Below are positions 7,038 through 63,539 of a DNA stretch of 64,000 bases, one piece after another. Source of the stretch: Verrucomicrobiota bacterium (lineage in GTDB: Bacteria; Verrucomicrobiota; Verrucomicrobiia; Opitutales; UBA2995); contig JAQBYJ010000016.1 in the NCBI GenBank assembly GCA_027622555.1, positions 1 through 64,000 of the forward strand. Reading direction: 5' to 3'. Made by a program: the position numbers and the translations under genes. Under the pieces are notes generated by a model. The model was not told where the DNA came from. It saw only the letters and a program-made list of their open reading frames with translations, and did no database searches. How positions within the stretch are numbered: position 1 is the stretch's first letter; the number at the start of each line of letters is the position of its first letter.

Positions 7038-8327
7038 ATGCTTGGGCATCGTGCCCACCATTCAATGACGAAGCCAGATATTAGCTACTCTCGGATCGGA
7101 CAGCTTGCAGAGCCTCCGGTTATCAGCGAAATCATGAAGGTCGCTTTGGAAAACAAGCAGATTCTTTCTTTGGCGGCCGGGTTTACGGACACCGAGGCCT
7201 TACCTGTTCAGGCTGTTCGGGATGTAGCTGTGTCCCTGGTCACGAATGGTCGTTCCCCGGAGTATCTTCAGTACGGCACAACCATGGGTCGACCTGATCT
7301 AAGAAAGTTCGTGGCCCAACGTTTGAGCAGGATGGATCACCACCAGAGTCCATCCTACCACCCTGATAATGTCATGATTACGAATGGCTCCCAGCAGTCA
7401 CTCTACATGGCCATGCAGGTGTTATGTGATCCTGGTGACATCGTTCTGGTCGAAAGTCCGAGTTATTTTGTTTTCCTGGAGCTTTTGAAGGGACTGGGGA
7501 TAACCGCGGTTGGCCTTCCTTTGGATGAACATGATGAAATCGATACAAAAGCTACTGCGGCGTTAATAGAAACGTTCAAGGCGGATGGGTCGATAAACCG
7601 GGTTAAAGCAGTGTACTTGGAATCCTGGTATTCAAACCCGTCAACCCGTTGTTTGACCACGGAAAAAAAGGTTGAGGTGGCCACGGTCTTGAAAGAAGCA
7701 GACCTGATTATTCCGGTACTTGAGGATGGTGCCTATTTCGAACTCTTTTTTGAGGAGCGTTTTGCCTCGATGAGTATCCTGGCTATTGAGGAATTTGATT
7801 CCTTTCCCCGGCTCTTCTTTGGCACTTTTACAAAGCCGTTTGCCACTGGATTAAAGGTTGGGTATGTCATCTGTGACCACTCCCAAGTCCTGTCAAAAAT
7901 GGCTAGTATAAAAGGCCATCATGACTTCGGTACTTCTAATTTTAATCAAGCCATCGTGGAGCAGGTTACTTTGGATGGTGCCTATGATGCTCATCTGGTT
8001 AAAAGTCGTTCTCGTTATTTGGAAAAAATGGAAACCTTGCATCAAACCCTCATCGGCGAAGGGCTGCCCGAATTGGGTTGGGATTGGCAGAAACCGGATG
8101 GTGGCATGTTTCTTTGGCTCAAGGGGCCCGACGCTGTTGATACTTCCCGGGAAGGAGCTTTTTTTGAAAATGCTGTAAAAGGAGGAGTTCTTTATGTTCC
8201 AGGTGATTTATGTTTTGCGCCTGGAGGCCCCAAAAACTACATCCGTTTATCTTTTGGAGTACTTGAACAGAACGATTTGGTTGAAGCAGGACACCGCCTT
8301 GCCAAAGTAATGCGAAAGTTCAAATAA
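7038..8327 (+). CDS. PLP-dependent aminotransferase class I/II
   Basis: A fold-type I aminotransferase of the 2-aminoadipate/kynurenine aminotransferase II-like branch (429 residues). Visible marks are GSQQSLYMAMQVL and VESPSYFVFLELLKGLGI in the large domain, the ESWYSNPSTRCLT segment where QNPTG usually stands, and the PLP-lysine context GTFTKPFATGLKVGY. The substrate cannot be fixed from sequence. The first ATG (7038) is followed by a TGGGCA-TCG-TGCCCA hairpin at 7043-7057, so the ATG at 7065 (MTKPDISYSRIG) may be the true start. Neither has a clear ribosome binding site. Confidence 0.85.
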   Translation: MLGHRAHHSMTKPDISYSRIGQLAEPPVISEIMKVALENKQILSLAAGFTDTEALPVQAVRDVAVSLVTNGRSPEYLQYGTTMGRPDLRKFVAQRLSRMDHHQSPSYHPDNVMITNGSQQSLYMAMQVLCDPGDIVLVESPSYFVFLELLKGLGITAVGLPLDEHDEIDTKATAALIETFKADGSINRVKAVYLESWYSNPSTRCLTTEKKVEVATVLKEADLIIPVLEDGAYFELFFEERFASMSILAIEEFDSFPRLFFGTFTKPFATGLKVGYVICDHSQVLSKMASIKGHHDFGTSNFNQAIVEQVTLDGAYDAHLVKSRSRYLEKMETLHQTLIGEGLPELGWDWQKPDGGMFLWLKGPDAVDTSREGAFFENAVKGGVLYVPGDLCFAPGGPKNYIRLSFGVLEQNDLVEAGHRLAKVMRKFK

Positions 8328-8358
8328 CCAATATCTTTAATCTTATCTTATCTGAGTT

Positions 8359-9738
8359 ATGAAAATATGTTGCATCGGCGCAGGCTATGTAGGTGGGCCT
8401 ACCATGGCGGTAATCGCAGAAAAATGTCCTCACATTACGGTTACCGTGGTCGATGTAGACGCATCCAAAATCGAGGCTTGGAATAACGGGAATTTACCGA
8501 TTTTCGAACCGGGACTCCAGAAAGTCGTCGATGGCCGACGGGGAACCAACTTGTTTTTCTCAACCGACCGTGAAACCGCTATCGCAGAGGCGGACATTAT
8601 TTTTGTTGCTGTAGGAACACCTACAAAAAAATACGGTATTGGCGCCGGTCGAGCCGCGGATCTTGTGTATATTGAAAAGTGTGCACGTGATATTGCGCAA
8701 ATGGCAAAGGGTCCAAAAATCATTGTGGAGAAATCCACTATTCCCGTTCGAACAGCCGATGCCATAAAAGCCATTTTGAATGAAAGCGACACTGCTCAGT
8801 TTCAGGTGCTTTCAAATCCGGAGTTTCTTGCGGAAGGGACCGCAATTAATGACCTGCATCATGCGGACCGTATATTGATTGGCGGAGATCAAACTCCTGA
8901 AGGTCTCAGAGCCATTGATACCTTGGCCAGTGTGTATGCAAATTGGATTCCTACCGAACGAATCCTTAAGACGAACCTTTGGTCATCTGAGCTATCCAAG
9001 CTAACCGCCAATGCATTCTTGGCTCAACGGATTTCTTCAATTAATGCAATGAGTGCTTTATGTGAGGCGACTGGTGCGGATGTGGATGAGGTTTCAAAGG
9101 CGATTGGAACGGATAGCCGAATTGGGCCAAAATTTTTAAAAGCCTCGGTTGGCTTTGGAGGATCTTGTTTCCAGAAGGATATTTTGAATCTTGTTTACCT
9201 CTGTGAATATTATGGTCTTCAGGAAGTTGCCGACTATTGGTGCAAGGTGGTTGAGATGAATGATTACCAGAAAAAACGATTTTCAGCCAAAATAGTAGAA
9301 ACGCTTTTTAATACAGTTAACGGGAAGAAAATTGCCATTCTTGGTTTTGCTTTCAAAAAGGATACCAATGACACGCGCGAGTCTTCATCGATTTATGTCT
9401 GTCAGGATCTTATTGCGGAGAACGCCACCGTTTCGATTTTCGATCCACAAGTCGCTCACAATCTGATTTTTACAGATTTGGGTCAAACTCAGGAAGACGA
9501 AAATGGTGTCCCGAACCGAAATGTTGAAATTGCCGAAGACGCCTACGCCGCATGTGCGGGAGCTCACGCTGTGGCCGTTCTAACGGAGTGGGATATGTTT
9601 AAGGATCTGGATTTTCAGCGGGTATTCGATTCAATGGAGAAACCGGCATGCATTTTCGATGGCCGAAATATTCTCGATCGAGCAGCTCTTGCAAAAATTG
9701 GCTTCAAGACTTACGCAATTGGTAAGTCCAATACCTGA
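8359..9738 (+). CDS. ugd: UDP-glucose 6-dehydrogenase, eukaryote-like
   Basis: A 459-residue NAD-dependent enzyme that oxidises UDP-glucose to UDP-glucuronate for polysaccharide synthesis. The Rossmann start [19 protein letters not shown], the [12 protein letters not shown] segment, the catalytic Cys in [18 protein letters not shown] and the late [12 protein letters not shown] motif are all present. These stretches look much more like plant and animal UGDH than the usual bacterial Ugd/TuaD type, from recall of those sequences. The gene overlaps the convergent rsmA by 28 bp. Confidence 0.95.
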
Positions 9739-21367: not shown

Positions 21368-22783
21368 ATGGGTAGTCCATTTGATGTGCCCGGTCATTCC
21401 TACCAGCACCTAAAGGAAACATTTCAAGCCACCTCCCTTTTCGAGGATAAAACTTGGAAATTGTCTCCTCATGCCTGGCCAATCAGTCAAAAGGAACTCG
21501 ATGAAATCAGGACCCTGGGTCAAGCATGTCTTGATTTTCATAAAGCACTTGAGACGCTTTATATTCGTTCTTCAGAAGGGAAAAAACTTCTCAGAAATAA
21601 AGACCTCTTTGCCCCTTGGGTCGCGGATTATCTCGACAGAGGTAAACCTCATCACCTGATTAAGCACGGGCGATGCAAAGCGACACGTGGACAACTGCCG
21701 GTTGTCATTCGTCCAGATCTTTTAGTCACCGAAGAAGGTTTTGCCCTGACAGAAATCGATTCTGTGCCTGGCGGTATCGGACTCACCGCCTTTCTGAATC
21801 GATTGTATTCAAGTGTGAATGACCGCGTTATTGGAAATGCGGATTTGATGTTGAAGTATTTCTACAAGGCTCTTGCGTCTAAGACACCTGACAAACATGC
21901 ACCGATGATTGTCATCGTCGTCAGCGATGAGGCAGCAACCTATCGTCCAGAGATGGTTTGGGTCTGTAATGAACTTCAGAAACTTGGCAAACGCGTCTAT
22001 TGTTTCCATCCGGATGAAGTGTATCCGTTGGGCGATAATATGCATGTGTCTATTGATGGAAATCCTGAGAAGGTGGATGTCATTTATCGTTTCTTCGAAT
22101 TGTTCGACTTGCCCAACTTGAAAACCATCCCGTTTTACTTCGAAGCTTTGGAAAAAGAAGAAGTGGAGCTTACTCCACCTATGAGGGCATTCCAGGAAGA
22201 GAAGTTGAGTCTTGGTTTATTTCATCACGGTATGCTTGCACAATTTTGGAGTGAGAATTTGCCCAAACGGTCTTTCAATGCTTTGTCCAAAGTCATCCCC
22301 AAAAGCTGGGTGATGGATCACACACCTTTGCCTCCTACAGCGGTTTTGGATGGTCCGCTGGTGAGTGGAAAACCCATTCGTGAATGGTCTGATCTTTCAA
22401 ATGCTTCCCAAAAGGAACGAAACTTGATCATAAAGATCAGTGGATTTCACGAAACGGCATGGGGAGCTCGAAGTGTGACACTCGGGAGCGATTCATCCAG
22501 GGAAGTTTGGCAAGAGGGGATTCAGCAAGCAGTTGAAATGAGTGAGAATCATCTGCATATTTTGCAGGAGTATCGTAAGCCGAAGCGATTAACACATCCA
22601 GTCTATGCGGATCCTGAAAATGTTTTCCAAATGCAAGGACGAATTCGGCTCTGTCCTTACTTTTTTGTGGATGGAGAAACTGCCGAGTTGGCTGGCATCC
22701 TCGCTACTTTTTGTCCGGCAGATAAAAAAATAATTCACGGAATGCGCGACGCTGCGATGTTACCGTGTCAATTGGTTGATTAG
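21368..22783 (+). CDS. Conserved unknown protein, possibly ATP-grasp-like
   Basis: A 471-residue soluble protein I do not recognise. It starts 2 bp after prfB, so it is likely cotranscribed with it. The segment VIRPDLLVTEEGFALTEID followed by SVPGGIG resembles the nucleotide/substrate region of glutathionylspermidine-synthase-like and other ATP-grasp enzymes. ERNLIIKISGFHETAWGARSV could be the ATP-binding strand-loop. There is no signal peptide or membrane segment. Cys is scarce and no metal motif is visible. The ATP-grasp link is an inference from these two short stretches only. Confidence 0.6.
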   Translation: MGSPFDVPGHSYQHLKETFQATSLFEDKTWKLSPHAWPISQKELDEIRTLGQACLDFHKALETLYIRSSEGKKLLRNKDLFAPWVADYLDRGKPHHLIKHGRCKATRGQLPVVIRPDLLVTEEGFALTEIDSVPGGIGLTAFLNRLYSSVNDRVIGNADLMLKYFYKALASKTPDKHAPMIVIVVSDEAATYRPEMVWVCNELQKLGKRVYCFHPDEVYPLGDNMHVSIDGNPEKVDVIYRFFELFDLPNLKTIPFYFEALEKEEVELTPPMRAFQEEKLSLGLFHHGMLAQFWSENLPKRSFNALSKVIPKSWVMDHTPLPPTAVLDGPLVSGKPIREWSDLSNASQKERNLIIKISGFHETAWGARSVTLGSDSSREVWQEGIQQAVEMSENHLHILQEYRKPKRLTHPVYADPENVFQMQGRIRLCPYFFVDGETAELAGILATFCPADKKIIHGMRDAAMLPCQLVD

Positions 22784-22820
22784 GTAGACTCCATTTCCGT
22801 TTTTTTGCTTCGATTATGAG

Positions 22821-22846
22821 TGGCGCTCCCGCCGGGAGTTGAACCC
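22821..22846 (-). other. Putative attachment site: tRNA 3'-end-like fragment
   Basis: Read on the minus strand this is GGGTTCAACTCCC (a T-arm with its seven-base loop), then GGCGGGAGCG and CCA, the layout of a tRNA or tmRNA 3' end with encoded CCA. No tRNA body precedes it on the minus strand. It stands between the backbone gene ending at 22783 and the integrase at 22975, as expected for the displaced 3' fragment left when an element integrates in a tRNA gene. The intact gene should then lie at the other end of the element; I do not find it in this window. Confidence 0.55.
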
Positions 22847-22909
22847 TTAGCCTGAATCCCCTTGTTTTCAGTATTTAAAAGGCTTTCAGAGATTCGCCTT
22901 GAAACACTT

Positions 22910-22927
22910 GTAAGCATCCGTAAGCAT
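22910..22927 (+). repeat. Direct repeat GTAAGCAT upstream of the integrase
   Basis: Two 8 bp copies of GTAAGCAT at 22910 and 22920 are spaced ten bases apart, one helical turn. They lie between the att-like sequence and the integrase start. Closely spaced direct repeats here are typical arm-type or excisionase binding sites, but function is inferred. Confidence 0.4.
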
Positions 22928-22974
22928 TTTCTTTTCGGGGATTTTTATGCGAAACAACTTATTCAAGGAAACCA

Positions 22975-24246
22975 ATGGCCGGTAAAGGCCCCAAGTGGGT
23001 TAAGGAGGTTCGGCGCGGCAATGTGACCGTAAAGGTCTATCGGATTGCACGCAAAGACACCAAATCGGGTTTCATTTACGGGGTATCCTGGAAGGACTCA
23101 GGCGGAAAATGGACCCAGAGGCAAAAAGTTGACCTGAAAAAAGCAATGGATCTGGCGAAAAAGACCGCCGACGAATTGCATTTAGGAAAGGTTCTGACTC
23201 CCGAATTTACGCAATCCGAACTGGAGGGTTTGGGCCATGCAAAGAAATTGCTAGGGGATGTTCCTTTGCTTTCCGCCGTCCAAGAATGGAAAAGAGCGAA
23301 TGAGTTGACCGCAGGGCAGATTATCCCCGCAGCTCAGGACTGGTATGACCGGAACACCGGAAAAATCAAAAAGGCCACCGTTGGCGAAGTAATAGACGTA
23401 TTTTTGAAATCAAAAAGGGAGGATGGTAAAACCACGAAGAAAAGTTATGAAGACACCTTTCCGTCCTTAAATGCGGCAATGGGTAATGTCCCTATTACGA
23501 GAATCACCGCCACTCGGATCCAAGATTGGTTGAATGGCATGACGGTAATTAAAACCCGTAAATCCGTCACAGGCCGCACCCGTAACACCCACAGAAAACG
23601 GGTTGTGACTTTGTTTCGATTTGCTTCAAGAAGAGGTTTTTTGCCGATTCACTTTAAGACCCAGGCCGAACTGACAGACCGCGCAAAGGAGGATGATATT
23701 AACATAGGCATTGCCGATGCAGATAATTATCAGAAGCTTTTAGACCTGATGAGGGATGAATTTCCCCATTATCTGGCGGCAACGGTATTAGCGGGCTTAT
23801 GTGGAATGCGCAGGTCAGAAGTTCATGGGCAGTTGTGGGCGGATATTAGTCTGGAACGGCGCTTTGTTCGTGTTACGAATGCGAAGCCAAACACACCTGC
23901 AAAACGATTGGTTACGCTATGCGATACGGCCATTGAATGGCTGATGCTTTGCGAGAATCGGGTGGGGGAGGTTTGTCCAGGCACGACCATGTTCATGGAT
24001 CGAATTCGCTTTATCGGAAAAGGCCGGGGGTTGGTTCTCCATAAAAACTGCTTTCGTGATTCGTTCATTTCCTGCCGGATCGCTGCAACGGGGGAGGTGG
24101 ACCGGACGGCATTGGAGGCAGGGACAAGTGCCAAGATGATTCACAAGCACTACAGGGAACTTGTGACAACCGAAGAGGGGCAAGCCTGGTTTAAGGTCAG
24201 TCCGTACAGACCAAGCGGGAAGGTGGTTAGTTATGACGCGGGATGA
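22975..24246 (+). CDS. Tyrosine-type integrase of the integrative element
   Basis: A 423-residue site-specific recombinase. An N-terminal Lys/Arg-rich region resembles an arm-type DNA-binding domain; a core-binding SAM-like domain lies around 140-220. The catalytic domain has Arg in GLCGMRRSEVHG. The usual HxxR box is NCFRDSFIS (Asn in place of His), and the nucleophile Tyr is in HKHYREL. The His replacement is seen in other integrases of this broad type, from recall. It lies next to an att-like sequence and is the first gene of the element; its last 14 bp overlap the next gene. Confidence 0.85.
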   Translation: MAGKGPKWVKEVRRGNVTVKVYRIARKDTKSGFIYGVSWKDSGGKWTQRQKVDLKKAMDLAKKTADELHLGKVLTPEFTQSELEGLGHAKKLLGDVPLLSAVQEWKRANELTAGQIIPAAQDWYDRNTGKIKKATVGEVIDVFLKSKREDGKTTKKSYEDTFPSLNAAMGNVPITRITATRIQDWLNGMTVIKTRKSVTGRTRNTHRKRVVTLFRFASRRGFLPIHFKTQAELTDRAKEDDINIGIADADNYQKLLDLMRDEFPHYLAATVLAGLCGMRRSEVHGQLWADISLERRFVRVTNAKPNTPAKRLVTLCDTAIEWLMLCENRVGEVCPGTTMFMDRIRFIGKGRGLVLHKNCFRDSFISCRIAATGEVDRTALEAGTSAKMIHKHYRELVTTEEGQAWFKVSPYRPSGKVVSYDAG

Positions 24247-24904
24247 AGCATTCAAAAGGTTGTATGCTCTGCGGGGTAAGCTGTTCTTTGGTGATGATTG
24301 GAAAAGCAATAGGAAGATGGGAAATCTTGAGAACACCTTGCTTGATTGGGCAACAAGGAATCATCGGCTAAAAGTCCATTGGACCGAAACGGAACCGACG
24401 GAAACAGCAATCTTGGGGCATATTCCAGGGTGGGTAAAAAAGAAAGACCATATAACAATTTCGCAATTCGCCAGAATGTATGAGAGGGCCGCTTTGAATG
24501 CTCCCGTCAAAAAGAACGATTACAATGTCTGCATGGCGTTCATTGTAACCATGGGGTTCTCTTATTCTGAAAAGTTTAAGGGCTTGGTTGAGCAAACCGG
24601 AATTTATCGGCCCTGGGCGGTGGACCTGGAGCGGTGGCAAAAGTTCATGAAACCAAAGGTTATGGAGATGCGGGAAGAACTGGAACAATTTCCGGGATTT
24701 CCGCCGTCTACCCAGCACGTCTTGGATGTTTTGAAACAGCTTGAACGTGATCCGGACAATATAATCCGTTCCCGGGAAAACAGATTGAAGAAATATATTG
24801 AAGACTTTGAAAACAAATATAGCGGGGAGATCGGCTTTAAAAGTGTTCCTCCGTCTTCAAAGGGCGGAAAAAGAAAGTCGGGCTCTCGGGCAAAAATACA
24901 TTAG
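24233..24904 (+). CDS. Unknown element protein
   Basis: A 223-residue soluble, charged protein with no family I recognise. The start overlaps the integrase end by 14 bp, so the two are translationally linked. The C-terminal third is helical and Lys/Arg-rich (DNIIRSRENRLKKYIEDFEN, then a GGKRKSGSR tail), suggesting nucleic-acid contact. It has no signal peptide or membrane segment. A hairpin follows at 24911. Confidence 0.55.
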   Translation: MTRDEAFKRLYALRGKLFFGDDWKSNRKMGNLENTLLDWATRNHRLKVHWTETEPTETAILGHIPGWVKKKDHITISQFARMYERAALNAPVKKNDYNVCMAFIVTMGFSYSEKFKGLVEQTGIYRPWAVDLERWQKFMKPKVMEMREELEQFPGFPPSTQHVLDVLKQLERDPDNIIRSRENRLKKYIEDFENKYSGEIGFKSVPPSSKGGKRKSGSRAKIH

Positions 24905-24910
24905 TTTTTA

Positions 24911-24943
24911 AACTACCCCACTTCTGATAATTTTGGGGTAGTT
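24911..24943. terminator. Perfect 10 bp hairpin, possible terminator or operator
   Basis: AACTACCCCA at 24911-24920 pairs perfectly with TGGGGTAGTT at 24934-24943 around a 13-base loop, directly after the stop of the preceding gene. The T-rich side is on the left (TTTTTA before the stem), so it is not a standard plus-strand terminator. It could act on the minus strand or as a binding site in front of the excisionase-like gene. Confidence 0.4.
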
Positions 24944-24998
24944 AGGTGCCTTTCGTGGGTTGTTTATAAATGCTGTTTTGTTTCTATTATTTGGAGCA

Positions 24999-25202
24999 AT
25001 GCCAGCAATAGCACACGATGAGACAATCCCAACTGAAGAAGTCCAAAGACTTACTGGGTACGCTCATCGTCAAAGCTTTTGGCGAGCATTTCCAAAGTTA
25101 AGGATTCCATGTTATCATATCAACTCGAAGCGGATTATTTTCTATAGATCCGAGGTTGAGGGATGGCTTGAGGATCGAAAAAGAAATCGACCACAAACCT
25201 AA
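24999..25202 (+). CDS. Excisionase-like helix-turn-helix protein
   Basis: A 67-residue protein with the small winged-helix/MerR-like HTH seen in AlpA and phage Xis: IPTEEVQRLTGYAHRQSFWR, then YHINSKRIIFYRSEVEGWL, where the last part is the typical wing and closing helix. ATG 24999 has a good GGAG five bases upstream; an upstream TTG would add a hydrophobic stretch that does not fit a DNA-binding protein. Together with the integrase it probably controls excision and perhaps transcription of the element. Confidence 0.65.
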   Translation: MPAIAHDETIPTEEVQRLTGYAHRQSFWRAFPKLRIPCYHINSKRIIFYRSEVEGWLEDRKRNRPQT

Positions 25203-25266
25203 ACCAAAAAAGAGGAAACCGTGGCAATCTATCCAGGACAACCACGGTTTTGAAATTAAAACGACA

Positions 25267-25545
25267 ATGAAAATACCAACGGACTCTAAAGGCTCTTGCA
25301 AGCATAAATGGCGGGGCGTATTCTTGGACGGAAGGATCAAAGTAACAGCCAGGTTTGAAAACCATGGGAAAAACATGGTCCGGGAGTGGGACCCGATGCC
25401 GCCTTGGGAGGCGAAAATGACGCGCAAGACCTGGTCGCAATTTCAACGGGAATACCACTTGTTCCGTTGGGAAATCGCCCGTGATCTGTGCGAGCTGGCC
25501 GGCAAGCTGGATGTATTTATGGCCGTGACAAAGGGGAAGATATGA
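25267..25545 (+). CDS. Unknown small element protein
   Basis: A 92-residue basic protein from ATG 25267 (MKIPTDSKGSCKHKWRG). A TTG start at 25156 would give 129 residues but overlaps the excisionase-like gene. It contains a central WDPMPPWEAKMTRKTW stretch and a helical C-terminus; no family is recognised. It ends in ATGA shared with the primase start, so its translation is coupled to the replication gene. A role as a primase accessory factor is only a guess from this coupling. Confidence 0.5.
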   Translation: MKIPTDSKGSCKHKWRGVFLDGRIKVTARFENHGKNMVREWDPMPPWEAKMTRKTWSQFQREYHLFRWEIARDLCELAGKLDVFMAVTKGKI

Positions 25546-27887
25546 ACCGGAACCTTGAAACCGCCCTAAAGCTCCGGGAAATAGGAATTGCCTGCATTCC
25601 GACCAACGGGAAGACAGCCATTTACCCTTGGAAGCGATGGCAAGATGATTTGCCCGACCCGGATTTATACCGGACCTGGTTTAGCAACGGTCGCAACATT
25701 GCACTGATAGGTGGAAAAGTAAAATGCCTCGACTTTGACGAGCCGGAAATTTATCCACTATTCGAGCAACGGGCGAAAGAATCCGGGCTTGGTGATATTG
25801 TTGACCGGTTGATCCGGCAGAAAACTCCATCGGGAGGGTGTCACCTGGTATGGCAATCAGACGGGGCACCGCTCCCAAACACCAAGTTAGCTGAAAAACA
25901 AAACCGGGAAGTATTGATTGAGACACGTGGAAAGGGCGGATATTTTCTAATAGCTCCATCCGAAGGCTATGAGCTTACACGCGGATCTTGGGAGGGAATA
26001 CCCTGCCTCAACGAAGATGAACAAGCCTCCTTGCTGGATCTTGCACGGTCATTCAATCAAAACGTGAAGGAAGATCCCAGGCGGGAAACCTTTGCTTCAG
26101 GCGAGTTGACCCCGGGCGACGAATACGACCAAAGCGGGAACTTTGAAGGACTGCTTGAAAAACACGGCTGGACCAAGTTAAGCGAAAAATATTGGCGGAG
26201 ACCCGGCAAAGACAAGGGCGTATCGGCATCATACAACCATATTCCGGGCCGGTTCTGTTGTTTCTCGACCTCTACCGTTTTCGAGGCGGAAAAAGTTTAT
26301 AAGCCGTTTGCGGTTTATGCGATCCTCGAACACGACGGCGACTTTAGCGCGGCGGCGTCCGCTCTGCGGCCACGCAGGGAAGATCGTGCGCTTGATTTGG
26401 AAGATGTTATTGGCCGGAATGAGGAAGAGAATACAACTTATCAGGACGCTGAACCTGAGGATAGGGAAGAAGCCGAGATGGAATTGCCGGAAATGCCTTT
26501 TCCGCTAAATGAAATCGTAAGCGAGGCCGTATCTCTCTACGGGGTTCATCCCGACATGCCGACACTTCAAGTCTTGTGTGCGGTCTCGGCTGCCATGAGA
26601 AAAAGTTTCAAACTCAGGATTCCACCTTTCGAGACCTTTGGGAACATATTCGGCTTTGTAACCGCAATCAGTGGTAGTGGAAAAACCCTTACCTCAAAAT
26701 TAATTAACAGGCCGTTGCATGAGTGGGAAATCGGCATGCAAAGACATTGGGAACTGAGGGTAAAGCCGTCAGTTAACGCGCAGATTCAAATTCTGAAAGG
26801 CAAACAGAAACGACTGGCTCAGCCTTCAAAGCAGGAATCCGAATCCAATTGCACGAAACAGCTTGAGGAGGTAAACAGGAAAATGGCAGAGCTCGAGGCT
26901 CGGTCAATAGTGCCGTCTCTCTTGGTGGAAGACGTGACCACGCAGGCGTTAGGCATGATGCTTCAGGCCAATGATGAGTATCTGGCTTTGCTCTCCTCGG
27001 AGGCCGGGGACGTTGTGGCCAATCTTTTTGGAAGAAACAACAGTAACAATCGAACAGATGAACACCTTTATCTGAAGGCGTTTTCCGGCGAATCGGGGAA
27101 GGTAAACCGGGTAGGCAGGGAACCAGTCATGTTAAGAGAACCAGTTATGACTGTATGCCTGTCTTCGACTCCGGACGAACTATCCGGATTATTCAATACC
27201 GACCGGTTCGTTACCGGCGGCTTGCTTCCACGATTCCTTATCTGTCTGAGCAAGTCCCCGCCGATGAGAGATGACGGCACAGCCCGTATGCCGGATCCCG
27301 GAGTCAGGGAACGGTGGGAAGCCTGTCTTCATGGGATTCTAAATATCAATGAAACTTTGACTGTAATTCCAACGCCTGAGGCTGAAAAAGTGTTTCGCGA
27401 TTATGGCAATAAATATGCCGATGCCTCAATTCAAATGCCGAAATTAGCATCCTTCAACACTCGTAGAAGGGAGATTGCTCAGAGGATCGCACTAATTATT
27501 CACGTTGCCCAACATGGCCCGGACGCGGGACACATCCGGATGGCCGTCAAGGGAGCTGAGACGGCTTGCAAATTGTCTGACTACTACGGGAGAGCATCCG
27601 CAAAAATAATCATGAAAGCCCGTCAGGGAATCGAAACGGGAGAGGTTGAGCGGATAATCGATACGGCCCGTCAGCACGGAGAGCAGACCGCAGACGGGTA
27701 TCAGATAAGCCTGAGGGACATTAAAAGACTGAAAGACATAAAGCCGGATAGAGTAAAAGAGTTGGCAACTAGCTACGGTGATTTGCTGAAAATCGAAACT
27801 CTTTCCTCAAACGAAAAGGGGGGTAGACCTTCAACGGTTGTAATCGTTAGCCGAGACGGTGGGGATGTCCGCCTAAGGATGGACTAG
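25542..27887 (+). CDS. Primase-polymerase / DUF3987 helicase-like protein
   Basis: A 781-residue protein from ATG 25542, overlapping the previous stop by 4 bp and preceded by GGGGAAG. The N-terminal ~190 residues match the bifunctional primase/polymerase (prim-pol) domain: GIACIPTNGKTAIYPWKRWQ, IALIGGKVKCLDFDEPE with the metal Asp residues, and TPSGGCHLVW. The second half is DUF3987, an AAA-like region with Walker A AISGSGKT near 375. Such fusions replicate plasmids, satellites and integrative elements. It is the element's replication module, with no relaxase or capsid gene beside it. Confidence 0.8.
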   Translation: MNRNLETALKLREIGIACIPTNGKTAIYPWKRWQDDLPDPDLYRTWFSNGRNIALIGGKVKCLDFDEPEIYPLFEQRAKESGLGDIVDRLIRQKTPSGGCHLVWQSDGAPLPNTKLAEKQNREVLIETRGKGGYFLIAPSEGYELTRGSWEGIPCLNEDEQASLLDLARSFNQNVKEDPRRETFASGELTPGDEYDQSGNFEGLLEKHGWTKLSEKYWRRPGKDKGVSASYNHIPGRFCCFSTSTVFEAEKVYKPFAVYAILEHDGDFSAAASALRPRREDRALDLEDVIGRNEEENTTYQDAEPEDREEAEMELPEMPFPLNEIVSEAVSLYGVHPDMPTLQVLCAVSAAMRKSFKLRIPPFETFGNIFGFVTAISGSGKTLTSKLINRPLHEWEIGMQRHWELRVKPSVNAQIQILKGKQKRLAQPSKQESESNCTKQLEEVNRKMAELEARSIVPSLLVEDVTTQALGMMLQANDEYLALLSSEAGDVVANLFGRNNSNNRTDEHLYLKAFSGESGKVNRVGREPVMLREPVMTVCLSSTPDELSGLFNTDRFVTGGLLPRFLICLSKSPPMRDDGTARMPDPGVRERWEACLHGILNINETLTVIPTPEAEKVFRDYGNKYADASIQMPKLASFNTRRREIAQRIALIIHVAQHGPDAGHIRMAVKGAETACKLSDYYGRASAKIIMKARQGIETGEVERIIDTARQHGEQTADGYQISLRDIKRLKDIKPDRVKELATSYGDLLKIETLSSNEKGGRPSTVVIVSRDGGDVRLRMD

Positions 27888-28474
27888 AACAAATCTCTGC
27901 TGACCGATTTTGTGCTTAACAAGGCTTTATAGTGATTAAGTGCTTTTACCATCCGATCAGCTGCCTGAGTAGATTTGCAGTTATAACTTTGGTCCTCGAA
28001 GTATTTTGCTGGTCCTTTTGATCCTGTTGTTGTCCCGACGCTTTTCATGGCGTTCTCCCCCTTTTTACATTCAAACACAAAACGTGTGCCATTTTGGGAA
28101 ATTCTAACCCTACGTAAATTAATCGTAACTAAATACTCAAAGTTTTCAGTATTTCGCCCTAAAAATATATTGAAGGTGTGCTTAAAACTGATTTGACCAT
28201 CTTCCAAGCTTACGAAGTCTGATTGGGATGCTGTTATTTCAACTTGCCGGACCCTTTTAACGATTTTCGTATTTAACAACGATTCAATATTTTCCTCAAT
28301 CCATGTCTTTGTATCCTCAAGTGATGGCTCCGTTGATGTCACATCTGAAGTAATCGGCTGCGCCGCTAAAAAGCAACTTCCTATCAGTAACTTTTCCTCA
28401 GAACCTGGCCAAATGGATCGAGGAAAGATTCCACGAGGGCTCAGACATAGAACAGATAGTGGGAGCGCCGCCAC
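27884..28474 (-). CDS. Unknown protein, N-terminally truncated at a repeat
   Basis: The supported part is about 27884-28350: a hydrophilic protein with EENIESLLNTKIVKRVRQ, a beta-rich middle and a KKGENAMKSVG loop. I do not recognise it. No ATG occurs upstream in frame before the dispersed repeat at 28355-28390. The longest frame runs through that repeat and into sequence antisense to another gene fragment, so its first ~40 residues are probably not genuine. I infer the gene lost its 5' end at this junction. The 3' end overlaps the primase gene by 4 bp, convergently. Confidence 0.45.
   Translation of the reverse strand: MAALPLSVLCLSPRGIFPRSIWPGSEEKLLIGSCFLAAQPITSDVTSTEPSLEDTKTWIEENIESLLNTKIVKRVRQVEITASQSDFVSLEDGQISFKHTFNIFLGRNTENFEYLVTINLRRVRISQNGTRFVFECKKGENAMKSVGTTTGSKGPAKYFEDQSYNCKSTQAADRMVKALNHYKALLSTKSVSRDLF
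28355..28390 (-). repeat. Dispersed repeat, copy 1 (minus orientation)
   Basis: On the minus strand this reads TTACTGATAGGAAGTTGC, then TTTTTAGCGGCGCAGCCG. It matches the left ~36 bp of the fuller copies at 30768, 32947 and 33119. It sits exactly between two genes that both lack their 5' ends, so it marks a rearrangement junction at the right side of the integrative element. Confidence 0.75.
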
Positions 28475-28728
28475 CCGCCATCGGAGGCAAAGTTACTTTG
28501 ACGGAATGGCGTCCAACGCAGTTTTGTTTAAGATACGAAGGTGATCAGCATGCCGAAGGGTTGATCTACGCGCTGACTTTCAAACTCTTTCGCCACCTGC
28601 AAGCCGATATTTTCGGAATGACCGCCTATAAAACACGCGCAGGTCCTTTTGTATCGCTCTACTTCAACCTCCCCACGACCCTCTCACTCGAAGAAGGAAA
28701 AACCTTAATCGACCAGCACTTTACTTGA
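28391..28728 (+). pseudogene. C-terminal fragment of an unknown protein
   Basis: An open frame of about 112 residues runs out of the repeat at 28355-28390: NLAKWIEERFHEGSDIEQIV, then a Gly/Pro-rich turn, TEWRPTQFCLRYEGDQ, and LIYALTFKLFRHLQADIFGM to a normal stop at 28728. There is no ATG; the first possible start is GTG 28459. The composition is that of a real folded protein, so I read it as the surviving C-terminus of a gene cut at the repeat. I do not recognise the family. Confidence 0.5.
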
Positions 28729-28775
28729 AGCCTGGGATTTCGCCCGAACGCCGGTTAGGACTTCACCAGTTTCAT

Positions 28776-29252
28776 CTATATACGTTTCTGCGCACGCAAC
28801 TCGACCCGCCGCATAGGCATAGAATCAATCAACCCATACACGTTATCCCATGAGAAACCTGAAAGCGTAAACCGACGCTTTACCCCACCATCGAGGCCAA
28901 TCAAAGCAACATCCATCCCCAACAACTGTTCCACCAGCGCAAGCTTTAGGCCCTCATTACTCACCTGCTTTTCCCCGGATCCATAGACATTTACTTCCTC
29001 ATTAGTTACAGCGACGACTACCAGTCGGTATTCTTTCAACCTACCTAGCTGCCGTTCGAGTTCGGCCTCGAATTTCGTTAAGGAAGTTTCGCCCAATTGG
29101 GCCACCATCACACGGTTCTCCCATCGAAAGTCATTCAGGGGATTCGCAAGGGAATCAAGCACTGTTGAAGCCATACCAATGACAAGAACCACGTAACCAA
29201 ATAAACAATAGGAATGTCCTTCTCTAATCATTCGAGACCGTCGCATCATCAT
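28776..29252 (-). CDS. DUF4174 domain protein
   Basis: A 158-residue exported protein. After a hydrophobic N-terminus (YCLFGYVVLVIGMAS) comes the DUF4174 pattern: FRWENRVMVAQLGE, RLVVVAV, VALIGLDGGVKRRF and the closing SMPMRRVELRAQ, in which IDSMPMRR is the strongest mark. The fold is thioredoxin-like, but no CxxC is present; function is unknown. Starts at 29252, 29249, 29246 and 29231 (MIREGHSYC) are all possible. Confidence 0.72.
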   Translation of the reverse strand: MMMRRSRMIREGHSYCLFGYVVLVIGMASTVLDSLANPLNDFRWENRVMVAQLGETSLTKFEAELERQLGRLKEYRLVVVAVTNEEVNVYGSGEKQVSNEGLKLALVEQLLGMDVALIGLDGGVKRRFTLSGFSWDNVYGLIDSMPMRRVELRAQKRI

Positions 29253-29779
29253 ACGCCTCTGTTGCCTCCATTATCAGAGACAACGTGCAAAGAACTACCA
29301 TTACTACAATCATCGTTGTTTCGATCATATTCTACAATACGGTTCTCAGCTTTTAACGCAACCCGGTCAATACACAGAAACCTGTTCAAAACCTCTACGC
29401 ACCAGATTTTTCAACTCCCTCCCCAGCACTCAGCCAGACGATCACACGGAATACGACATGAACGATCTCCACTGGGAAACTGCGACCACTGATGCGGAAA
29501 ACCACCTTCTGTTTTGATCTTCGGTAAATTCCGGGAATTACAATAGCAGTTTTCAATATACCGCGAAAACGTGAGTTATGCATCCCTGTTTTCCACAATC
29601 CAGACAACTGCAGGAGTTCTCGTTGACACGACAGCAGCCAGAAGCGCATCCTGACACCCTTTGGTAAATGAATTGCGGATTCGAGCCCACCAGATTCCGG
29701 GAAGGAGATCACCTCCAGAATCCGCACCGAAGCGTTCTAACCCATAAGGGTAAAACGGAAAGTTTGCACCTACCCATCC
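29253..29779. other. Non-coding or degraded stretch
   Basis: These 527 bp hold only short frames in all six directions, none with recognisable protein-like composition or a ribosome binding site. No palindromic doublet or repeat copy was seen. It may be decayed coding sequence, given the scrambled surroundings. Confidence 0.4.
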
Positions 29780-30130
29780 ATGACGAACGTTCTACTTTTT
29801 TCCTGCAGCGCACTCTCGGCCTTATCCTTTTTGTGGTATGCGATGGACTGCCTAACGACCGTACGCATGAAACTGGAATTTGAGCGCTATGGCATGGGTT
29901 CCTATCGAGTTCTGACCGGAGTACTTCAAATCTGTGGCGTAGTGGGTCTCGCGGTAGGCTACACGATTCCGATCATCGGAGTTCTTGCAGCAGCAGGTCT
30001 AGCGATTCAAATGCTTCTGGCACTGGTCGTAAGGATACGAATCAAGGATGGGTTCCTGCGCTCGTCACCGGCAGTTTTCTACCTCATACTCAACGCTTTC
30101 CTCGTCTATTTATACCTGCAGCGAATATGA
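29780..30130 (+). CDS. DoxX-like four-helix membrane protein
   Basis: A 116-residue membrane protein with four hydrophobic segments and the DoxX-like loop LEFERYGMGSYRVLTGVLQICG after helix 1. The family is linked loosely to redox and thiosulfate metabolism; no specific role can be assigned. Its 3' end overlaps the 3' end of a similar protein on the other strand by 21 bp. Confidence 0.7.
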   Translation: MTNVLLFSCSALSALSFLWYAMDCLTTVRMKLEFERYGMGSYRVLTGVLQICGVVGLAVGYTIPIIGVLAAAGLAIQMLLALVVRIRIKDGFLRSSPAVFYLILNAFLVYLYLQRI

Positions 30131-30490
30131 GTAGTAAGCCAGGAAAAGACAGAGCAGCAAGACACAGGCGGCGGGAAAGGACTTCACAAGCGCATCATTT
30201 ATTTTTAGATGCATAGCGATTGCGACGACCATCAACACCGTCAATACCAGTGCGGAAGGTAATAGGGTTTGCGGCAAGAAAATCCCGATCAGGAGCCCCA
30301 CTGCCGCAGCGATCTTTAGAGATCCAACCACGCCTACCGACCACGCTGGCAGTCCGTATTCCGCAAATTCTTCCTGCATGGTTTTAGCCTTTCCACCCCG
30401 ATAGATAGAATGTTTGTTAAACCGCAATCCCCACACATTGAGAATCCCCAAGCCTACTATTAGTTGACACACGATTGCTAGATAGTCCAT
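30110..30490 (-). CDS. DoxX-like membrane protein, convergent paralogue
   Basis: A 126-residue four-helix protein of the same type: EEFAEYGLPAWSVGVVGSLK corresponds to the loop of the neighbour, followed by GLLIGIFLPQ and the LVKSFPAACVLLL helix. It faces the plus-strand DoxX-like gene tail to tail with a 21 bp overlap. The pair may be an inverted duplication that has diverged. Function unknown. Confidence 0.7.
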   Translation of the reverse strand: MDYLAIVCQLIVGLGILNVWGLRFNKHSIYRGGKAKTMQEEFAEYGLPAWSVGVVGSLKIAAAVGLLIGIFLPQTLLPSALVLTVLMVVAIAMHLKINDALVKSFPAACVLLLCLFLAYYSYSLQV

Positions 30491-30767
30491 TTTAGTCCGT
30501 TTCGATAAATTTTGATTCTTTTAGTTAAGTTTTCGTATCGCCTCTCAAGACGGTTGAGCCAGGATCTTGTAACCTAGCAGCGCCCTGCTGCGTAAGTCAA
30601 AGGATTCAACGCTGACTTTCCGGTACACAGGCCAGTCACAGTTATCGAATGAACGTCACCAGAAAACAGGAATAACGTTCTTATGAAAAAGGCGAGACAT
30701 TCGAACCCACAGGAATTCGTTTACGTAATTCCTACCAATGAGGATGGAGTCGTGAATTCAGAATCTT

Positions 30768-30820
30768 TTACTGATAGGAAATTGCTTTTCAGCGGCGAAG
30801 CCGCAGAGGTGGGGGTTTTG
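30768..30820 (+). repeat. Dispersed repeat, copy 2
   Basis: A full ~53 bp copy: TTACTGATAGGAAATTGC, then TTTTCAGCGGCGAAGCCGC (a GCGGC-GAA-GCCGC hairpin) and AGAGGTGGGGGTTTTG. It lies inside a 50-codon frame at 30683-30835 that reads TDRKLLFSGEAAEVGVL across the repeat, the same frame as in the sulfatase fragment at 32947. A sulfatase fragment begins immediately to its right. Confidence 0.8.
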
Positions 30821-30824
30821 CCAG

Positions 30825-31067
30825 GAATTCGATGAGTACGAAGGAATTCCCTATTCCAACGACATGTGGCCCTATAGTCCCATATTTGCGCACCTCCCCC
30901 CAACGATCCGGCTTTCTAAAACCCTGCCCTTCGTCCACAATGAGGAAGCCGTTAATCCCGAGTTGCAAGCCGAGGATCAGGCGCTGCTCACCCGTTGGGC
31001 CACCGAATCAGCCCTTAAGTTTATTGATCAAAACAGGGGAAACCCGTTCCCGCTCTTATCCATATAG
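30825..31067 (+). pseudogene. Sulfatase internal fragment
   Basis: An 80-residue frame with the mid-part of an arylsulfatase: EFDEYEGIPYSNDMWPYSP, where the GIPYSNDMWP string is typical, then a LPFVHNEEAVNPELQAEDQ stretch and ALLTRWATESALKFIDQNRG leading to a degraded PFFLYLPH-like site. The N-terminal Cys-x-Pro-x-Arg region and everything after the break are missing. It starts five bases after a dispersed repeat copy, so the break is probably at that repeat. Not functional. Confidence 0.7.
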
Positions 31068-31293
31068 CAGTTACAGTATCAATGTTTTGCGCTATCCAAA
31101 TAGGAAATTTGTGCGTATCTTCAGTATATGTCCGCCTGTTTCAGTCAACGAAGGAGGAAGTACCTTCGCCCTTTTAAAAGGCAGGCGGGTTTACGACGCA
31201 GCGAAACAAATACTACAATGTGAATTCTTATACAAATGGATTGATTCCTGCGAGTTGGCGATATAACATATTTGCTAATTCGATGATACTTCT

Positions 31294-32379
31294 ATGAAAA
31301 CTTTATCTCTTCTCATATTCCCGATTATAGTTTTTTGCCTGGTTCAGCAAGTGACGACAAACGCAAAGGAAATGTCTCAAGTGGAGCTTGAACAATTGTT
31401 TGCCCGGTTTCCGGAGGCAGATGCCGACGGAGACGAAAAATTGACCCTTAAGGAAGTCGAGCGGTTTCGCAAAGCACGCAACGCAAAGAAGCAACAGGCG
31501 CGCAAGCAGACAGCCGCCACCACCACACTCGCGGATGCAACTAAAAACACGGTGCCAGAGCCAACCCTGCCAAATGTACCCTATGGAGCGCACGAAAGGC
31601 AGGTTCTAGACCTCTATCGCGCTGCTTCGGATCACCCGACGCCCGTAGTCATCTTCTTCCACGGAGGCGGATTCCGCGGAGGTGACAAACAATCTTTTGC
31701 CAAAGATACCCGTCCCTACGTCGAAGCCGGCATCTCGGTAGTGTCATCCAATTATCGCTACAGCAGCCAGGCAATTTATCCGGGTCCGGTACTCGACGGC
31801 GTACGGGCCGTCCAGTTTGTGCGGGCGAAAGCAAAGGAGTGGAACATTGATCCAAAGCAGATCGCCCTCTCGGGCAGTTCGGCCGGCGGTCTCATGGCAT
31901 TGTGGATCGCTCTCCACGACGACCAGGCTGACCCGGCATCGGAAGATCCTATTGCGCGGCAGTCGACGCGGGTGACCTGCGTGGTGCCCTACATCACCGC
32001 GTGCTCGATTGAACCGGACTACGTCCGGCAGCATCTCGGGGCGAACGATTTTGGCGCGATCCTGCCGTTGTTTGGCGTTGCAACCGTCGAGGAACTTTCC
32101 CGTCCCGGCAAAGCGGCTCTCATACACAACGCCTCACCCCTTACGCACCTTTCACCGGACGATCCACCAATCCTGTCCATCTTCCGCAGTCCTTTATCGC
32201 CGACGCCACTCCCTCCGGACGCAAAGTTCGGCCAGTGGATTCATCATCCGAAATTCGGCGAGCTGCTAAAACGGGCCTGTGATTCCATTGGGGTCGAATG
32301 CACATTTTATCATGCCGGTTTTCCGGCGCCTGAGGGGGCCGAAGCAGCCTTTGTATTCAAACAGTCAGCCTACCAATAG
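31294..32379 (+). CDS. Alpha/beta hydrolase (esterase) with EF-hand-like N-terminus
   Basis: A 361-residue exported protein. After a signal peptide (LLIFPIIVFCLVQQVTTNA) comes an EF-hand/dockerin-like loop, FPEADADGDEKLTLKEVERF, then a linker and an alpha/beta hydrolase of the BD-FAE/hormone-sensitive-lipase type. The oxyanion motif is FFHGGGFRGGD and the nucleophile elbow is LSGSSAGGLMAL; the C-terminal FYHAGF supplies a candidate His. It probably removes acyl groups from glycans or other esters outside the cytoplasm. The bases look more GC-rich than the neighbours, hinting at transfer. It stands between two sulfatase fragments. Confidence 0.82.
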   Translation: MKTLSLLIFPIIVFCLVQQVTTNAKEMSQVELEQLFARFPEADADGDEKLTLKEVERFRKARNAKKQQARKQTAATTTLADATKNTVPEPTLPNVPYGAHERQVLDLYRAASDHPTPVVIFFHGGGFRGGDKQSFAKDTRPYVEAGISVVSSNYRYSSQAIYPGPVLDGVRAVQFVRAKAKEWNIDPKQIALSGSSAGGLMALWIALHDDQADPASEDPIARQSTRVTCVVPYITACSIEPDYVRQHLGANDFGAILPLFGVATVEELSRPGKAALIHNASPLTHLSPDDPPILSIFRSPLSPTPLPPDAKFGQWIHHPKFGELLKRACDSIGVECTFYHAGFPAPEGAEAAFVFKQSAYQ

Positions 32380-32492
32380 ACCCGAAGCACACCCGTTGCG
32401 ACAGTACCGACAATCGGAATTCCGCCGAAAATAGTTATACAACAAAAATTGCGGCCCGTTTACCTGAGAACTCGGAAGGGGTCCCCGCTCGG

Positions 32493-33044
32493 AAGGGGTC
32501 TTTCCTGCAAATGTCCCACTACCCCAACCAGGAAGAAAAGGAAGGCGGCCGGAACCGCCAGGCCGACCCGGATAACAAGTTTATAGGGATCACAGACAAA
32601 ACCATGGGTGAAGTTCTTGACGCGGTGGAACGGCTCGGAATCAAGGACAACACTTACTTTATCTACACCACCGATCACGGCACGCCTGGACGCAACCCCC
32701 CACTGAGTGGAGGAAAAGGCACCGTGAGGGAAGGAGGCCTGCGTGTCCCTTTCATCGTAGCCGGACCCGGCATCGAGGCTGGAGCCTGTTCCTATGTCAG
32801 AGTGAACGCGATGGATTTGCTTCCCACGTTCGCTGATTTGGCGGGAATCAAGAAAGCTCTTCCCAAGGAGGTCGAAGGCGGGAGTCTCGTAGCGGTATTG
32901 AAGAACAAAGGACTCGGAAATGTGAAACGGGCGCGTGAAGAATTCGTTACTGATAGGAAATTGCTTTTCAGCGGCGAAGCCGCAGAGGTGGGGGTTTTAG
33001 GGGGAGGAGTGAAAATTGAAAGCATAGAGAAGCAATTTGTCTGA
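32493..33044 (+). pseudogene. Sulfatase C-terminal half, truncated and fused to repeat
   Basis: The frame carries the second half of a sulfatase: KGSFLQMSHYPNQEEKEGG, KTMGEVLDAVERLGIKDNTY, FIYTTDHGTPG, the GTVREGGLRVPFIVAGPG segment and AMDLLPTFADLAG. The N-terminal half with the formylglycine Cys is gone, and the C-terminus runs into a dispersed repeat (FVTDRKLLFSGEAAEVGVL) and stops shortly after. It is probably not functional. It could be the other part of the fragment at 30825, since that one stops where this one begins, but the two look like different sulfatase subfamilies. Confidence 0.7.
32947..32998 (+). repeat. Dispersed repeat, copy 3
   Basis: A full copy nearly identical to the one at 30768, replacing the C-terminal coding part of a sulfatase fragment. 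The frame reads TDRKLLFSGEAAEVGVL. Confidence 0.8.
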
Positions 33045-33056
33045 TTTGGGGGTTAG

Positions 33057-33171
33057 ATTGATAGGAATTTGCGAATAGAAACGTGATTCATGCTGAAATA
33101 TACCGGGGAAAGTCAATTTTATTGATAGGAATTTGCTTTTTAGCGGCGAAGCCGCAGAGGTGGGGGTTTTG
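33057..33171 (+). repeat. Dispersed repeat, partial and full copies 4
   Basis: A 16-17 bp partial copy (ATTGATAGGAATTTGC) lies at 33057-33073 and a full copy at 33119-33171 with the GCGGC-GAA-GCCGC hairpin. The partial copy matches the full copy beside it exactly over 16 bp, which suggests a local duplication. The rest of 33045-33332 holds no gene. Confidence 0.7.
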
Positions 33172-33332
33172 GGGAGCAGCCGATCAGGCTCAGAGTGATT
33201 ACTACAATTAAAGAAGCATAGGGTATTTTCATTCTTAGGTATTTATTCTTCTGATTGGGCCGGGTCAAGCAACAGGGGGAGGTTTCTGTTAAATACTTGT
33301 CGGGAGCTTAGCAGACTTGATAGCTTTAAGCT

Positions 33333-62984: not shown

Positions 62985-63539
62985 GAGCTTAGGCCGAGCG
63001 GTTTATGAAATCCACTATCTCTGGTTTCGGTAATGCGATCCAGAACAATTTTGCGGAAAGCAGTTTGTCCGTTCTGGCAGAAGGGCAGATCTCATTTGAG
63101 CAAAAAGCATCTCACTAAAGGTGTTTCACCACGGAAGTATCGGAGCCGCTTTTCAAAAAAATGCCCGGTATGGGAATGGATTAACCCTACGCCAGCCGTC
63201 TTATGGATAGTGTTGCTTGAACTCTTTTCTTTACTTCAAGCGAAGCAATTTCCGAACGATTGACTTTTAGGATGATTCTGGCGCATAACAAGTATTCGTT
63301 CGTAAAATCCCTTTGCCACTAAAAGAAGAACCGTCAAATCTACCAATCTATGTTGCCAGTTTTTGCTCCTCTCCCTGAAATCCTTACCTCTGCGTCCTGC
63401 CCCGGGCAAAGTCCATGGACTGCGCCGCTAAAAAGAAAATTTCTATCAGTAATCGTAGGGGTTGACGTAGAATCAGGAATCTCGTCCTTTCGCGCGTAGC
63501 GAGCATATTACCGCTTCCCCCTATTGCGATAATCTACGA
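62985..63539. other. Intergenic region with one repeat copy
   Basis: 555 bp without a convincing gene; a 76-codon frame at 63033-63263 is rich in Arg/Lys/Ser/Cys and has no recognisable motif. A dispersed repeat copy lies at 63419-63452. Confidence 0.45.
63419..63452 (-). repeat. Dispersed repeat, copy 5 (minus orientation)
   Basis: On the minus strand: TTACTGATAGAAATTTTC, then TTTTTAGCGGCGCAG. It matches the left part of the other copies and shares the GCGGCGCAG variant with the copy at 28355, then diverges. Confidence 0.65.

Follow-up and report, generated by a model that had tools for sequence, protein, structure and literature searches.

A dispersed repeat at gene breakpoints in Opitutales, very probably the 3' end of an IS91-family element

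Repeat copies and broken genes in the window

The window, i.e., the whole 64-kb stretch of DNA analyzed here, contains five copies of a repeat of about 50 bp, as counted with a 26-bp core and up to 3 mismatches (<=3); dinucleotide shuffles of the same sequence gave 0.00. An earlier note on this DNA had placed copies at 28355, 30768, 32947, 33119 and 63419, and all of these exist. It had also listed a partial copy at 33057; a match is present at that position, but it is not a separate copy, as it lies inside the body of the 32947 copy, where ATTGATAGGAATTTGC stands in place of the homologous body sequence (~33057). The features are given below, with oriIS designating the putative 3' terminus of the element discussed later and a slash marking the outer edge of the repeat.

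28355..28390, minus: putative oriIS end, inner half lost, stops within the hairpin; outer edge TTAC/TGATAGG at 28390
28390..28731, plus: GlnD-like gene, C-terminal 112 aa, truncated precisely where the repeat has its outer edge
30768..30819, plus: putative solo oriIS end; outer edge TTAC/TGATAGG
30820..31066, plus: sulfatase internal fragment, begins at the repeat's inner edge
32511..32946, plus: sulfatase fragment whose C-terminus is lost where the following repeat has its outer edge; matches to the Sulfatase (201-301/301) and SGSH_C (11-75/154) profiles
32947..32998, plus: putative oriIS end belonging to a longer remnant of the element; outer edge TTAC/TGATAGG
32999..33118, plus: ~120 bp of element body adjoining oriIS, 91-93% identity to long copies on contigs C153 and C150; contains the partial TGATAGG match at 33057
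33119..33170, plus: putative solo oriIS end within the element remnant; outer edge TTAT/TGATAGG, inner edge inside a DUF1080-type gene
33171..33232, minus: DUF1080-type gene, first ~20 codons (MKIPYASLIVVITLSLIGCS), interrupted by the inner edge; G002 has the intact gene at the syntenic position
63250..63452 (inner limit approximate), minus: decayed longer copy, oriIS at 63419-63452, then ~150 bp of element body

The breakpoints were assessed by homology of the window segments to sister genomes, and the four that were checked (28390, 30820, 32946 and 33171) are real. The sulfatase internal fragment said to lie directly after a repeat indeed starts at 30820, and its homologue is whole in genome G001; likewise, the repeat described as replacing the C-terminus of another sulfatase follows a gene that ends in the middle of a domain at 32946. 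The fourth breakpoint, in the DUF1080-type gene, was absent from the earlier list. The GlnD-like fragment showed 81% identity to sister genome G004, whereas its identity to the complete resident gene, on C20, was 52%, so that it is an imported extra piece. Outside the window, repeat edges also truncate a rhamnosidase gene and a GSDH-type gene of the source genome. Some copies are intergenic, and a broken gene is not found beside every copy; despite this, the proposed link between copies and truncated genes held wherever it was checked. One earlier statement had to be withdrawn: the two minus-strand copies do not both stop at GCGGCGCAG, as the 63419 copy, which carries a palindromic insertion of ~27 nt inside its hairpin, continues into decayed element body to ~63250.

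A possible integrated island occupies positions 22783-28000 of the window. It includes a tyrosine-recombinase-like ORF with a weak PF00589 match (22975-24246) and a Prim-Pol/DUF3987 primase ORF (25488-27887), and near 22820-22850, directly following a gene that every sister genome has conserved, there is a sequence resembling a tRNA 3' end. The tRNA scan of the 64-kb window found none.

Structure, distribution and clustering of the repeat

Read in the sense of the element, the repeat consists of AACCCCCACCTC, a GCGGC/GCCGC hairpin and TAAAAAGCAAATTCCTATCA, and is followed by a tetranucleotide RYAA, probably host DNA, which is TTRY on the other strand; its outer edge, TGATAGG, is exact. The GCGGC-GAA-GCCGC hairpin pointed out earlier is present in the window and is also kept in relatives, with a perfect stem in 39 of 43 distinct copies. 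Pairing was retained despite sequence change (GGGGC/GCCCC, GAGGC/GCCTC), and the stem pair counts exceeded those of shuffled and slid controls, with both sides changed in three cells only. The repeat was also considered as a coding insert, and this was dropped, as the stem is kept and the translation is not. Inner lengths are very different, and copies end after ~48 bp, after ~170 bp, or lead into a transposase: the majority, bare ends of ~48 bp, stop after GGGGGTTKT, and a few extend for ~120-280 bp into a shared body. In some long copies, the repeat and the body are separated by a second hairpin module of ~33 bp that ends in ...ACAGGTAGGGGGAGGAG (L033 after 7064, L034 after the 8301-8349 copy, and L086 after 10268). 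Variant repeats with ~20-25 extra bases after TTTGCTTT, ahead of the main hairpin, were observed at L084:1407-1481, L084:4625-4700 and L080:1505-1570.

The paired stem, with some compensatory changes, and the position of many copies, antisense to genes and a short distance upstream of them, are what a cis-regulatory RNA or another 5' leader would be expected to show. This explanation is scarcely conceivable, as the Rfam scan of the 64-kb window gave no match, the copies cut coding sequences, their neighbours are unrelated to one another, and the repeat is linked to a transposase.

The genome-wide consensus search that the earlier note had asked for was run as a profile search with the 52-bp unit TTAYTGATAGGAATTTGCTTTTYAGCGGCGNAGCCGCNGAGGTGGGGGTTKT, and it returned ~30 clear copies in the 6.0-Mb source genome, with 90-100% identity between copies across ~50 bp, and homologous copies in relatives within the order Opitutales. 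Among the source genome and its relatives, 12 of 53 genomes had copies at E <= 0.001; in a wider draw on Opitutales, at E <= 1e-5, the repeat was found in 9 of 177 genomes, which comprise the family of the source genome and a single genome from each of two further families. In GTDB, exact-pattern matches came from Verrucomicrobia/Opitutales assemblies and from a single bin assigned to Poribacteria, and no exact match was found in viral contigs. The Poribacteria-binned contig (L066, JAPUIP010000568.1) comes from a sample series shared with a repeat-bearing Verrucomicrobia bin, and its copy reflects either mis-binning or transfer.

Neighbouring copies less than 6 kb apart have the same orientation in 42 of 43 pairs, the sole opposite-orientation pair being 28355/30768 in the window, and at the loci read the GC content of the DNA between copies ranged from 0.355 to 0.593. 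Such same-orientation arrays, with unrelated and partly foreign genes between the copies, resemble an integron, in which the repeat would be an attC-type site and the cassettes would be moved by a tyrosine recombinase; a gene for such an enzyme adjoins one copy on C59. We consider this highly unlikely. The core pair RYYYAAC/GTTRRRY (R'/R'') was not seen when the aligned copies were read by eye, the genes between copies are often truncated, bare copies occur in tandem, no consistent integrase was found at the clusters, and the repeat belongs to an IS91-type element.

TGATAGG is preceded by a preferred tetranucleotide, TTRY. All 25 copies of the source genome have RY immediately before it, and 14 of the 25 have TTRY, with P values of about 1e-16 and 3e-19, respectively, for window background frequencies of 0.23 and 0.016. 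Beyond the tetranucleotide the flanks look unrelated. Other preferences were found in G034 and G010, the latter preferring AAA. Tandem copies are joined as GGGGGTTTTAT/TGATAGG or GGGGGTTTTGC/TGATAGG, so that TTRY again precedes the next end. Part of the TTRY signal could belong to the element rather than to the target. The two observations supporting a host origin of the four bases are the varied words found there and the GlnD-like junction, and on these the bases appear to be host DNA.

Linkage to an IS91-type transposase

The search for a linked recombinase, also suggested in the earlier note, led to an IS91 transposase, near-complete but frame-shifted at locus L079 of a relative and present as pieces at contig ends of the source genome. 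At L079 (G010:C96), positions 8358-9629 of the minus strand encode a 423-aa ORF that matches Zn_Tnp_IS91 (PF14319, 7.7e-20) and Y2_Tnp (PF04986, 2e-19), above cut-off, and the NCBIfam IS91 model (NF033538) with 188.4 bits for a cut-off of 125. The HPHIH and RYYGYY motifs are visible in its sequence, and immediately 3' of the ORF are three repeats in tandem. The shared body of the long copies continues into an antisense frame whose end reads ...DNGLLLVIEDPDPWAHDTEPVFWTD, and in G010 this frame comes after the frameshift behind the 423-aa ORF. The C-terminal tail at L079 (8100-8400) is thus in a different frame from the rest, which is due to a frameshift mutation or possibly to a programmed frameshift. 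At L079, at L084 and on C157, the repeat lies 3' of the transposase frame at a distance of ~230-280 bp.

The source genome has a transposase C-terminal tail beside the repeat on C157, at the contig end, and a short piece on C150; N-terminal parts, 76% identical, are at the starts of C45 and C163. A tail beside a repeat was also observed in sister genomes G004 and G003. A complete transposase was not found in the source assembly, only these N- and C-terminal parts, and the PF04986 search of this genome gave no match because the contigs break inside the multi-copy element. At L134 (G000:C163, ~40-100), the N-terminal transposase part has an in-frame, palindrome-containing insertion of ~46-48 nt that the C45 copy lacks. 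On the side of the putative 5' end (terIS), C45 and C163 have a common region from about GCACAATTATTC on, an approximate limit. Before it lies a DUF1501 gene, of which only the last (3') part is present on C45 and the whole on C163; the two are ~80% identical over these parts and diverge more than the element parts, and their shared transfer is not certain.

Two observations in relatives are recorded here. Genome G034, 97% complete, has at least 14 copies of the repeat (loci L074-L077 and L085), and an IS91 transposase was not found in it. In the complete relative G040, another IS91-type transposase is matched seven times on C1 (around 332000, 2472000-2479000 and 2685000), and several of these matches are closely grouped in one orientation.

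Because the repeat is short, dispersed and hairpin-bearing, and because the source genome (G000) has 21 Y1_Tnp (PF01797) matches, a large RAYT-like set, we also weighed a palindromic REP/RAYT element moved by a Y1 transposase. This is extremely unlikely: the transposase reached by the long copies is of the Y2/IS91 and not of the Y1 type, and the Y1 loci are not at the repeat clusters, only the C35 locus sharing a contig with even a weak copy. The suspicion voiced in the earlier note, that the repeat marks junctions of recombination or insertion of an unnamed type, was borne out, and the type can be given as the oriIS (3') end of a rolling-circle transposon of the IS91 family. The element is a previously undescribed member of this family, known here mainly from solo 3' ends; a search of the open-access literature found no description of it in Verrucomicrobia.

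Proposed mechanism and comparison with known systems

Family features used here were taken from PMC3189936, PMC6218425, PMC13393415 and PMC4778049, and from general knowledge. IS91-type elements transpose from their 3' end, with termination at the 5' end or at some other sequence, and so yield one-ended products whose 3' end is constant (PMC3189936). The constant TTRY/TGATAGG edge and the varied inner ends of the repeat fit such products. Taken together, the data very probably identify the repeat as the 3' terminus (oriIS) of an Opitutales IS91-family element; the breakpoints are probably explained by IS91-type transposition from the repeat end, often one-ended, and recombination between copies may contribute to them.

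In the mechanism that we propose, the HUH/Y2 transposase would nick at TTRY^TGATAGG, and the displaced strand, with the repeat leading, would be joined to a TTRY target. Transfer, which is expected to depend on the hairpin and on TTCCTATCA, would frequently stop early, mostly ~48 nt in at TTKT, leaving a bare end, or alternatively would overrun the element into neighbouring DNA. That the TTKT inner edge is a favoured early stop is a conjecture, based on TTGT being itself a TTRY word. Bare ends would remain substrates for the transposase in trans, with the DNA on their inner side carried along. Repeated rounds, together with recombination between copies, would build same-orientation clusters with truncated and partly foreign gene pieces between the ends, and genes would break exactly at the repeat for this reason. 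The step from one-ended transposition to gene-fragment capture is inferred, and the best hint of it is the DUF1501 gene, the partial and whole versions of which on C45 and C163 are as expected for transfer beyond the 5' end. Counting against pure one-ended transfer, most solo copies have a sharp common inner edge and unrelated flanks, whereas daughters would then share inner flanks with their mother; the conjectured early stop at TTKT would account for this. Also speaking against the proposal, a complete transposase is missing from the source assembly, and none was found in G034 despite its many copies. When 13 inner flanks were searched in the source genome, no near-identical second copy was found, the matches being self matches and two distant ones, so capture from a resident source was not seen.

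The same result is expected if the repeats are IS91 ends but old copies recombined with one another, homologously or illegitimately, and this was the main source of the broken genes and clusters. The high identity of the ~50-bp copies also favours this reading, and most IS801 fragments of Pseudomonas syringae have been attributed to reorganisations (PMC3189936). As argued for IS801, much of the shuffling may have been done in this way. We regard recombination as the main cause as a serious but lesser possibility, because TTRY precedes the outer edge even between unrelated flanking genes and tandem copies are joined at TTRY-like words, so that each edge looks like a transposition product, and because recombination alone does not supply fresh gene fragments. 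Returning to transposition from the repeat end, a stronger version of it, rather unlikely in our judgment, holds that the bare 48-bp ends are working units, i.e., a minimal rolling-circle element served by a transposase in trans, in which copies of one orientation would begin and end one another's transfer, from one TTRY^TGATAGG to the next, and any intervening DNA would be moved as a cassette. If true, this would be a gene-fragment capture system, integron-like in working and made of IS91 origins.

The preferred reading names, and gives a mechanism for, a repeat by which both genes and assemblies of these Opitutales are fragmented. Evidence for the capture of neighbouring genes by IS91/ISCR elements has been called circumstantial (PMC4778049), and the present element would offer a non-clinical, high-copy case in which capture by one-ended rolling-circle transposition can be tested at many junctions, with a parallel in the gene-fragment capture by eukaryotic Helitrons.

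Each single feature of the element is known; what is unusual is the density of ~48-bp solo ends and their uniform orientation amid foreign gene pieces. The element resembles IS801 in its Zn-ribbon and Y2 transposase family, its transposition from the 3' end and its tetranucleotide targets, here read from sequence. IS801 also shows one-ended miniature products and transfer of adjacent DNA, and the likeness here lies in the junction pattern. In contrast, the target word is TTRY here and GAAC-like in IS801 (PMC3189936), the miniature units measure ~48 bp here and 229-679 nt there, and unlike in IS801, solo ends far outnumber transposase genes and form dense one-way clusters with foreign gene pieces. 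ISVsa3 and ISPps1, plasmid relatives annotated as IS91-like, are distantly related, with transposase identities of 26-30%; TTCCTAT is common to the element terminus and the 3' regions of both, ISPps1 having GTTGAATTTCCTATCC where the element ends in GCAAATTCCTATCA, and a stem ~20 nt upstream is visible by eye in ISPps1, as in the element. Capture of neighbouring genes has been proposed for the ISCR/IS91-like group, but the transposase of the element does not reach the NCBIfam cut-off for ISCR clade Ia (159 versus 925 bits). With integron cassette arrays the likeness is in appearance only, as same-way sites with unrelated genes between them, whereas attC cores were not seen here and the linked enzyme is of the IS91 type and not IntI. 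Helitrons share rolling-circle HUH transposition, a 3' hairpin and gene-fragment capture (PMC4778049), but they are eukaryotic and have a helicase domain, and the 3' hairpin of Helraiser acts in termination, whereas the element has its hairpin at the constant end, as IS91 does.
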